NCBI GenBank assembly: GCA_003559735.1
Contig: PWKN01000259.1
Location: 1-56,212 of the forward strand
Direction of reading: 5' to 3'
DNA length: 56,212 bases
Source of the DNA: Bacteroidales bacterium
GTDB lineage: Bacteria > Bacteroidota > Bacteroidia > Bacteroidales > UBA7960
Below the pieces are notes generated by a model that did not search any database, was not told where the DNA came from, and saw only the letters and a program-made list of their open reading frames with translations. Of this stretch, positions 5,792-33,648 are shown piece by piece. How positions within the stretch are numbered: the first letter of the stretch is position 1; every line of letters begins with the position of its first letter. A program made the position numbers and the translations under genes.

Positions 5792-5865
5792 ACCTGTATT
5801 GTTTATTCGTTCAATCCAATTCAGATGCAGGGAGCCGAAAGCCGCCGACACAGGTTAATGAAGGG
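5792..5865 (+). repeat. hairpin repeat element, copy 1 (partial)
   Basis: ACCTGTATT at 5792 and TCAGATGCAGGGAGCCGAAA with GCCGCCGACA at 5821-5850 align with the elements at 20798-20902 and 32938-33043. The distal right arm (GACCTGA) is missing, so this copy is truncated. The conserved pairing CCTGTAT with ATGCAGG (one G-U) is kept. It lies in the presumed leader of the radical SAM gene at 5919. Confidence 0.6.
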
Positions 5866-20640: not shown

Positions 20641-20775
20641 CCACCAGGCATACATTCCCATACGGATCACACCCCCCGTTTCCCGGAACAGCATAATTCA
20701 TGCCACCGGGAACCGGGTTTTTTGTAAATCCCCTTCTTAATGCTGATTACGGAATACACCATAAAAAAAAACAAT

Positions 20776-20783
20776 TATTTTTG
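20776..20783 (+). promoter_or_regulatory. probable -7 element of the yebC promoter
   Basis: TATTTTTG matches TAnnTTTG. An RNA start near 20790 would place the whole hairpin repeat (20798-20902) in the yebC leader. No TTTG is seen at the ideal spacing. Confidence 0.45.
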
Positions 20784-20797
20784 CAAGAGCAAACAAC

Positions 20798-20902
20798 CTG
20801 TATGGTTCATTCTTATGCTTCAGGTCAGATACAGGGTGTCGAAAACCGCCGGTACAGCGTATCCTGTTTCGGGGTTTTCGAAACAAAGCAGATGACCTGA
20901 AG
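20798..20902 (+). repeat. hairpin repeat element, copy 2 (most complete)
   Basis: CTTCAGGTCA (20818-20827) pairs perfectly with TGACCTGAAG (20893-20902). Inside, TCGAAAACC (20839-20847) pairs perfectly with GGTTTTCGA (20873-20881), and at the tip GGTAC faces GTATCC. To the left, CCTGTAT (20798-20804) can also pair with ATACAGG (20829-20835), which would compete with or knot the main stem. It lies within the 299-base gap 20641-20939, otherwise without features. Confidence 0.75.
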
Positions 20903-20939
20903 GATATATACCTGTAAAAAGCAAAATAACCAGAAGCCA

Positions 20940-21695
20940 ATGTCGGGACACAGCAAATGGTCAACCATAAAACGCAAGAAGGGCGCTGCAGACGCCAGGC
21001 GTTCAAAAATATTTTCGCGCATCATTAAAGAAATCAGTGTTGCGGTAAAGGAAGGCGGCAATGACCCAGACGGCAATCCGCGTCTGCGACTGGCCATCGC
21101 CAACGCCAAAGGGGTAAACATGCCAAAAGACAACATCCAGCGGGCCATTTCAAAGGCTGGTGATAAAAACGCAGCCGACTTCCAGGAAGTGACTTACGAA
21201 GGATATGCAAACTATGGCGTAGCGATATATATCGAATGCCTGACCGACAATATTCAACGAACCGTTGCCAGTGTGCGGTCATACCTGAACAAATATGAAG
21301 GCAAACTGGAAACAAAAGGTGCCCTGGCTTTTCTGTTCGACAGAAAAGGGGTGTTTACCATCCCTGAAAAAGCTTTACGGGAAAAGGAAATGGAAGAAGA
21401 TGATTTTATGATGGAAGTCATTGATGCTGGTGCAGAGGAAGCAGAGAACGAAGATGGGTTTTACACCATCTATACTGCCATGGAAGATTTTGGCAACATG
21501 GTGAAAAAACTGGAGGAAATGGATATTGAAGCGGAGAATGCCGAATTGCAGCGGATCCCGAAAACCACGGTTAAGCTCGAAAGAGAACAAGCCCAAAAGG
21601 TATTGAAACTTGTCGACACCCTTGAAGAAGATGAAGATGTGCAGAATGTATTTCACAACATGGAGCTTACCGAAGAACTCATGGCCGAAATGTAA
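20940..21695 (+). CDS. YebC/PmpR family regulator (TACO1-like)
   Basis: The 251-residue protein is a full-length YebC family member. It starts MSGHSKWSTIKRKKGAADAR, then has SKIFSRIIKEISVAVKEGGN, NPRLRLAIANAKGVNMPKDN and the acidic C-terminal half ending LVDTLEEDEDVQNVFHNMEL. Members act as DNA-binding regulators or as translation factors relieving ribosome stalling; recent work on YebC and TACO1 favours translation at proline-rich stretches. It stands alone, with a hairpin repeat in its presumed leader. Confidence 0.95.
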   Translation: MSGHSKWSTIKRKKGAADARRSKIFSRIIKEISVAVKEGGNDPDGNPRLRLAIANAKGVNMPKDNIQRAISKAGDKNAADFQEVTYEGYANYGVAIYIECLTDNIQRTVASVRSYLNKYEGKLETKGALAFLFDRKGVFTIPEKALREKEMEEDDFMMEVIDAGAEEAENEDGFYTIYTAMEDFGNMVKKLEEMDIEAENAELQRIPKTTVKLEREQAQKVLKLVDTLEEDEDVQNVFHNMELTEELMAEM

Positions 21696-31830: not shown

Positions 31831-31942
31831 CGTACCAATGAATTCAACTGTTCATTCTTTTATGGTCCGGCAACCATTGATCCTGCCTTATTCATAAAAA
31901 AGTCATTTTTCCAGGGGGTAAAGGTACGGTAAATTTTGTTTT

Positions 31943-32192: not shown

Positions 32193-32912
32193 TCAGATCA
32201 TGTTTTCATCTGCAAAACTAAAATAGTTGTTGTCAGCAATGATGATATGATCCAGCAAAGGCAGATCAAGACACGCACCTGCCTCCCTGCATTTTTTTGT
32301 AAGGTATTTATCCTGCTTACTTGGGTTCACATTACCGCTTAAATGGTTGTGGCACAAAATAATAGAAGTGGCACCGTTGTCGAGTGCCCTCCGGAAGATG
32401 ATTTTTGGTTCGGCCACCGTTTTTTCAACGCTGCCATGACTGATGCATACGGCTTTATGCATTCTTTTGCCGCTTTTCAGCATAATGACCCAGCATTCTT
32501 CATGGTTCAGGTCGGCAACAATTGGATGCATTATTTCAAAGGCATCGCGGCTGCAGCGTACGCTTTGTTTTTTCAGACTATCCGACAAACTCTGACGGCG
32601 TCCCAATTCCATTACTGCGATGATGTTGATTGCTTTTGCCACACCGATGGCTTTGAACTTCACCAAATCAGGAACATCCATTCTTGATAGTTCGGCCAGG
32701 TTGTTTGACACGCTGTGCATAATATTCCGTGCAACCTCCAGTGCCGACATGTCTGATGTCCCTGACCCGATAATAATGGAAAGGAGTTCTGCATCGGAAA
32801 GTGCTTTTCTTGACTTTCTCAGCAGTTTTTCCCGTGGCCTGTCGTCTTCAGCCCAGCTTTTTATGCCGCGCAACGGCAATGCCTGACAAGATGCGGTTTT
32901 ACCGTGTTTCAT
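32193..32912 (-). CDS. radC: RadC family JAB-domain protein
   Basis: The 239-residue protein has the two-part RadC layout. The helix-hairpin-helix-like N-terminal half has DRPREKLLRKSRKALSDAEL and IIGSGTSDMSALEVARNI. The C-terminal JAB/MPN+ half has HGSVEKTVAEPKIIFRRALD and the metal motif CHNHLSGNVNPSKQD (H-x-H with a later Asp). Most relatives have HNHPSG; here Pro is Leu. RadC was once linked to DNA repair, but its role is unclear. A hairpin repeat lies just upstream and the GGAAGCTTCC array just downstream, so it is framed by repeats. Confidence 0.92.
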   Translation of the reverse strand: MKHGKTASCQALPLRGIKSWAEDDRPREKLLRKSRKALSDAELLSIIIGSGTSDMSALEVARNIMHSVSNNLAELSRMDVPDLVKFKAIGVAKAINIIAVMELGRRQSLSDSLKKQSVRCSRDAFEIMHPIVADLNHEECWVIMLKSGKRMHKAVCISHGSVEKTVAEPKIIFRRALDNGATSIILCHNHLSGNVNPSKQDKYLTKKCREAGACLDLPLLDHIIIADNNYFSFADENMI

Positions 32913-32937: not shown

Positions 32938-33043
32938 ACCTGTATTATTCATGCATATCGCTCAGGTCAGATGCAAGGCGTCGAAAACTGCCGACATATT
33001 CTTCTATTAGAAGGCTTTCGCAACAAAGCAGACGGCCTGATCG
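32938..33043. repeat. hairpin repeat element, copy 3
   Basis: ACCTGTATTATTCATGCATA and the following TCAGGTCAGATG, CGTCGAAAAC and GCCGACA blocks match copy 2. TCAGGTC pairs with GGCCTGA (one G-T), CGAAAA faces TTTCG, and the tip CTTCTATTAGAAG is a perfect small hairpin that differs from copy 2. So the arms are kept while the tip changes. It lies between radC and the tRNA terminator, in the presumed radC leader but inverted relative to that gene. Confidence 0.7.
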
Positions 33044-33135: not shown

Positions 33136-33207
33136 TAGCCCGTAGGGGAATCGAACCCCTGTTACCAGGATGAAAACCTGGCGTCCTAACCCCTAGACGA
33201 ACGGGCC
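33136..33207 (-). tRNA. tRNA-Glu (UUC), copy 1
   Basis: The 72-base minus-strand sequence folds as a cloverleaf. GGCCCGT pairs with ACGGGCT, the anticodon stem CCAGG/CCTGG holds the loop TTTTCAT with anticodon TTC, and the T arm is CAGGGGTTCGATTCCCCTA-like with GGTTCGATTCC. No CCA is encoded. It is base-for-base identical to the copy at 33577-33648 and sits downstream of rpsT. Confidence 0.96.
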
Positions 33208-33576: not shown

Positions 33577-33648
33577 TAGCCCGTAGGGGAATCGAACCCC
33601 TGTTACCAGGATGAAAACCTGGCGTCCTAACCCCTAGACGAACGGGCC
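33577..33648 (-). tRNA. tRNA-Glu (UUC), copy 2
   Basis: Identical 72-base cloverleaf to 33136-33207, anticodon TTC, no encoded CCA. It is the promoter-proximal gene of the tRNA-rpsT-tRNA unit, about 20 bases from the predicted RNA start. Confidence 0.96.

Follow-up and report, generated by a model that had tools for sequence, protein, structure and literature searches.

A dispersed hairpin element of Bacteroidota is very probably a MITE whose pairing is compensated between lineages

The stretch of DNA considered here (the window) comprises 56,212 nucleotides of a Bacteroidales contig, PWKN01000259.1, and carries a similar hairpin at three separate sites. The question raised by these sites is whether the hairpin serves the genes that lie beside it or the element of which it is a part. 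The initial annotation placed all three copies in presumed leaders and left the choice between a mobile palindromic element and a structured RNA. The relevant features of the window are as follows.

5793..5854, + strand: copy 1, from sequence and a covariance-model match (22.7 bits, E=0.0024; outside the model seed)
20775..20783, + strand: conserved promoter-like (-7 like) motif of yebC, TTATTTTTG, from comparison of orthologous leaders
20797..20925, + strand: copy 2, with left terminal repeat CCTGTATGGTTCATT, complete hairpin and AAAAAGCAAA tail
20814..20906, + strand: hairpin of copy 2, arms 20814-20847 and 20873-20906, from repeat search and fold
20940..21695, + strand: yebC/TACO1 gene (Pfam PF01709/PF20772), whose leader holds copy 2
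31882..31896, + strand: possible remnant, CCTGCCTTATTCATA, with one mismatch to the terminal repeat and no hairpin
32939..33043, + strand: copy 3, with left terminal repeat CCTGTATTATTCATG, complete hairpin and a private apical stem

Hairpin copies in the window

The three hairpin copies are present as first described and belong to a larger dispersed family. In copy 2, the proposed outer stem of 10 bp (CTTCAGGTCA/TGACCTGAAG) and inner stem of 9 bp (TCGAAAACC/GGTTTTCGA) were confirmed and lie inside longer imperfect arms, which are separated by a 25-nt interval that holds a small apical hairpin; the structure is stable, with a predicted fold of -47 kcal/mol. In copy 3, a check of the sequence showed that the outer stem is retained, one of its pairs being G-T, and that the tip (CTTCT-ATT-AGAAG) is private to this copy. 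The match of copy 3 to copy 2 in a genome-wide search (E=1.7e-12) is not due to chance. Copy 1, at 62 bp, derives from the left half and consists of the left terminal repeat and the 5' arms only, the 3' arms of the hairpin having been lost; its 3' end reads CACAGG/TTAA. A covariance model whose seed contained copies 2 and 3 and left out copy 1 scores the window copies at 101.9, 98.3, and 22.7 bits. Copies 2 and 3 retain the left end only. The right half and right terminal repeat of copy 2 were looked for and not found, and since the recognizable part of the element there is limited to roughly its first 130 bp, this copy is old or truncated. All three are old, truncated members of the family.

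The placement of the copies in leaders is correct for copy 2 and loosely so for copy 1. Copy 3 occupies the radC leader (gene at 32193-32912, minus strand) in antisense orientation, as the annotation had itself pointed out, and lies downstream of a tRNA-Glu gene that shares the radC strand. Two tRNA-Glu(TTC) genes are found in its neighborhood (33136-33207 and 33577-33648, minus strand), about 440 bp apart.

The leader of yebC can be compared directly with its orthologs. In relatives, the start codon follows about 15-25 nt after a motif such as TTATTTTTG, which we take to be a promoter motif of the Bacteroidota type; in the window, the spacing from this motif to the ATG (20940) is interrupted by copy 2. 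Because the start codon of the relatives stands so close behind the motif, copy 2 is an insertion into a presumably transcribed leader. A yebC match was obtained in 17 same-genus genomes, and in every one of them the leader lacks the element. The element has landed between promoter and gene in one more case, at L018:1498-1536, where a left-end fragment follows a promoter-like TATTTTTGCATCC and closely precedes a tRNA gene.

Family size and transposon architecture

The source genome comprises 295 contigs (3.66 Mb), and at E<=1 a search with copy 2 as the query returned at least 21 matches in it, of which about 14 are strong; the proposed family therefore stands. The terminal motif CCTGYATTATTCAYR, with at most one mismatch, occurs at 39 sites versus one for a reversed-pattern control. 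A consensus query recovered additional copies from the source genome, as well as copies from eight same-genus relatives and from one genome of another genus in the family, and no copy from 31 of the 40 relatives. The public named relatives are metagenome-assembled genomes of Bacteroidales/Bacteroidia (GEM2.Bin73, CSSed16 bins). A distant search added 13 homologous places, with ~75% identity to the family, on the plasmids of Persicobacter sp. JZB09 (Cytophagales). Hundreds of copies reside on the Persicobacter plasmids, and 197 hairpin matches were counted in 1.2 Mb of one plasmid. Phage and viral collections yielded no family member, with 37 viral loci giving just a 16-bit match at chance level. 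Copies in the source genome are mostly intergenic, and the genes that flank them are mutually unrelated. No strand bias relative to downstream genes was found, with about seven copies sense and about seven antisense to their neighbors in the source genome (an approximate, ORF-based count) and 101 and 96 matches on the two strands of the 1.2 Mb of Persicobacter plasmid.

Intact relatives are 214-216 bp in length and have terminal inverted repeats (CCTGCATTATTCA / CCCGGATTATTCA). Homology among the genus copies runs to 214 bp, with CCTGCATTATTCAYR inverted at both ends, and the Persicobacter form is 216 bp, with ends CCCGGATTATTCATG / CCCGAATTATTCACC and terminal motif CCCGRATTATTCAYS. Most intact genus copies repeat 4 bp in their flanks: CTAA/CTAA (four times), TTAA/TTAA, ATAG/ATAG, TTAG/TTAG (twice), and CTAT/CTAT. 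In Persicobacter, 35 of 65 terminal-repeat pairs spaced at 150-260 bp have an exact 4-bp duplication, which is TTAA in 31 of the 35, and a 5-bp duplication was seen in just one. The target in the Bacteroidales copies (YTAR) is looser than the TTAA-dominated target in Persicobacter. Shorter derivatives of 111-127 bp carry target duplications of their own, and no transposase remnant was seen inside the element, intact or derivative. Within the source genome, no copy was seen to have both ends intact together with a clear target duplication, and among the copies tested the right half is clearly retained in one (L002). As for internal organization, the 214-bp form carries a separate 17-bp inverted repeat in its right half, and three 111-bp derivatives in one related genome, G011 (L061, L064, and L065), each consist of two inverted copies of the right end flanked by their own 4-bp target duplication.

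About 20 contigs of G011 terminate inside the element, 55 nt from one or the other of its ends. Assembly contigs break where many near-identical copies exist, and these breaks are as expected of many near-identical, recently moved copies. The terminal inverted repeats, combined with exact 4-bp target duplications, point to a non-autonomous transposon of the MITE type. The suggestion of a mobile palindromic element is borne out by these two features, by the near-identical copies in a related genome and by the empty orthologous site.

Pairing between lineages and in inserted copies

Thirty-six copies from three lineages align almost without gaps and share one hairpin, which has, in order, an outer stem, a tandem GA mismatch, three conserved pairs, a conserved internal loop (AAGGCG/CAACGAA), an inner stem, and a small apical stem. 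Paired cells account for 88.3% of this alignment, versus 79.2% when shuffled and 34-48% when the partners are slid, and the covariation score is 0.376 versus 0.233. The shuffle control for pairs changed on both sides was not exceeded (148/500), which can be attributed to changes shared by descent. Because copies from the same genome share their changes in this way, the consensus sequences of the lineages were compared instead. Between the genus and Persicobacter, eight double changes keep pairing and one does not, and four single changes keep pairing with none broken, a comparison that draws on three lineage consensuses and so on few independent lineages. Slid partners retain zero to two double changes. 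Between the source genome and its genus, three double changes keep pairing and two single changes break it at the outer end; a separate count of helix 1 also covers the outer pairs. The covariation test proposed as a check is therefore positive between lineages, with eight of nine double changes compensated. G-U pairs of the consensus occur on just one strand, the one presented here.

A second, alternative pairing between CCTGTAT and ATACAGG had also been put forward. It is perfect in copy 2, but it shows no covariation in the family and its left segment is the terminal repeat; 73.5% of its cells are paired versus 74.5% in shuffled alignments, and double changes are fewer than expected by chance. 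The family therefore does not support it. Rfam yields only two tRNAs in the window at the gathering level, and all matches to the element are below threshold. One Persicobacter copy scored 20.2 bits against RAGATH-10, for which the gathering score is 41.2 bits, and 12 others gave no match to it.

One further hairpin deserves mention. In a genome of the same class (G198; L210:1501-1608), a long hairpin with the AAGGCG/CAACGAA loop gives a weak, 39-bit match to the model; it is single-copy and its ends differ. It abuts a truncated ORF, which resembles four-helix-bundle/IVS-type proteins.

Were every insertion to function as an RNA, one would predict that GC pairs decay to GU in preference to AC. 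In 104 Persicobacter copies, GC changed to GU 83 times and to AC 92 times (p=0.55), and AU pairs gave GU 53 times and AC 58 times (p=0.70). Inserted copies decay neutrally, without constraint on pairing. Compensation between lineages, taken with this symmetric loss of pairs in the copies, suggests that selection for pairing is placed on the moving lineage and not on single insertions.

Search for a transposase

No transposase was found between CCYGVATTATTCAYS-type ends in any genome or plasmid stretch examined, which included draft genomes and the Persicobacter plasmids; the absence of a parent is compatible with MITE identity. Transposases of the IS1380 type (PF13701) had no match in eight genomes, and matches to IS4/IS5 (PF01609) and DDE_5 (PF13546) are associated with other terminal repeats. 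A 507-aa IS5_1 transposase at locus L119 (CP012862.1 184400-186700) was considered as an autonomous partner and rejected because it has its own ends (TAGGGTCTGCTGAAA) and is a separate insertion sequence inside a MITE copy. This insertion lies near the apical loop of the MITE, and more copies of it are found elsewhere on the plasmids. Elements that appeared to be long forms of 2.2 kb proved to be MITE copies holding a group II intron, and the remaining long terminal-repeat pairs on Persicobacter plasmid 1 contain introns, unrelated insertion sequences, or host genes.

The group II intron (RT/maturase, TIGR04416) occupies one constant position in the left arm (ATTATTCATGCTT^T) in several MITE copies of Persicobacter sp. 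JZB09 (L116, L117, L118, L121, and plasmid CP012852.1, W04). The 3' exons of the intron-bearing copies differ, that of one W04 copy included. Given the constant position and the differing exons, the intron seems to home repeatedly into the MITE.

Discussion

The hairpin element is very probably a MITE, with ends that are recognized in trans by a transposase and a structure that is apparently kept for the element's own sake; membership of the window copies in this family is well supported. From the terminal repeats and the fixed length of the target duplication, we infer mobilization of the DDE type. A cut-and-paste transposase acting in trans would bind the element ends (5'-CCTGYATTATTCAYR, in asymmetric left and right versions) and insert the element with duplication of its 4-bp target (YTAR/TTAA). 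The long hairpin adjoins the left end of the 214-216 bp interior and drifts in sequence while keeping its pairing between active lineages. As its G-U pairs are confined to one strand, the form in which it is read during the life cycle of the element is probably RNA or that one DNA strand. After landing in either orientation, mostly between genes, a copy is freed from constraint and decays; a copy in a transcribed leader, such as that of yebC in the window, would give an mRNA that carries the hairpin.

Several other explanations of the structure can be weighed against this one. A host RNA, riboswitch-like or an attenuator, that regulates yebC or other downstream genes from their leaders would account for the sense orientation of copy 2, the stability of its fold, and the compensated pairing. 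Such an RNA is, however, largely refuted by the 17 same-genus yebC leaders that do without the element, and the even division of copies between sense and antisense and between plasmid strands, the unrelated neighboring genes, the symmetric loss of pairs, and the lack of an Rfam family at the gathering level make it very improbable. Thus, of the structured-RNA reading, the part that stands is pairing conserved between lineages, apparently on behalf of the element, and the part that falls is an RNA that serves the host. REP/RAYT-type palindromes moved by a Y1 (HUH) single-strand transposase are likewise short, intergenic and present in many copies, but single-strand transposition of the HUH type makes no target duplication, and with terminal inverted repeats and 4-bp duplications both in evidence, we regard this origin as extremely improbable. 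It is also conceivable, if quite unlikely, that the stems are kept paired with no selection at all, by quasi-palindrome repair; long inverted repeats do undergo correction by template switching. This process would erase internal loops and G-U pairs, and the persistence of both makes it the less likely.

The roles considered here for the hairpin are candidates. Our first, tentative choice is that insertions within or close to transcription units become tolerable because of it, or that it limits transcription into the element. A rather doubtful variant of the MITE explanation, concerning the role of the hairpin only, is that it was once the 5' leader of the mRNA for a parental transposase and was inherited by the short derivative, in which it would keep read-through transcripts from being translated, as happens in several insertion sequences. 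The position of the hairpin at one end, adjoining the terminal repeat, its strand-specific G-U pairs, and the confinement of conservation to active lineages all agree with this origin, but no parental element was found, and the length of 214-216 bp shared by two orders points to an old age of the short form itself. It is unlikely that the element is a DDE mini-transposon with a functional non-coding RNA of its own, a folded core with the conserved AAGGCG/CAACGAA loop that transposition needs or is controlled by, for example, through contact with the transposase or with an RNA-binding protein of the host. If true, this reading would explain why structure is kept across two orders of Bacteroidota despite sequence change.

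Among known systems, ERIC, RUP, and BOX are dispersed intergenic hairpin repeats that are thought to be moved in trans. They resemble the present element in these respects; to our knowledge, they have no recognized sequence relation to it, and they are set apart by their different hosts. The Correia element, a MITE of Neisseria described at 204 bp, is mostly intergenic and has terminal inverted repeats; one Correia element is positioned directly behind a promoter, and its terminal repeats are the sites at which RNase III cuts the mRNA (PMC10969869). Size class, intergenic location, and terminal inverted repeats are shared, and copy 2 in the yebC leader is in a matching arrangement that would bring the hairpin into the mRNA. 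The present element differs in its terminal repeats, its 4-bp YTAR/TTAA target, its asymmetric hairpin near one end, and its compensation between lineages. BrickBuilt and other MITEs of Porphyromonas gingivalis, also of the Bacteroidota, are intergenic and hairpin-forming, some with empty sites and 4-bp duplications; BrickBuilt has ends that match the IS5-family elements ISPg1/ISPg9 (GAGACCTTTGCA) and holds 23-nt tandem repeats (PMC4596501), and the present element has neither. MITECca01 of Cardinium, a high-copy MITE of ~240 bp in a Bacteroidota genome, is comparable in size and copy number, but its IS982-family parent was identified in the same genome (PMC9769881), whereas none was found here. 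The ends of piggyBac elements typically begin with CCC, and IS1380 transposases have been described as distant prokaryotic relatives (PMC10140906). The CCC ends and TTAA duplication of the Persicobacter copies (31 of 35) recall this group, a resemblance of the ends only, as an IS1380-type transposase was found in none of the eight genomes.

A literature search, largely of papers available without subscription, found no description of the family, which is apparently undescribed and common to two orders of Bacteroidota. It adds a high-copy MITE family to a phylum with few described MITEs. With hundreds of copies available, selection on the moving element, in which pairing is compensated, can be measured apart from the fate of inserted copies, in which pairing is lost neutrally, and the split between the two is clean. 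Repeated leader hairpins in these genomes should accordingly not be annotated as regulatory RNAs.
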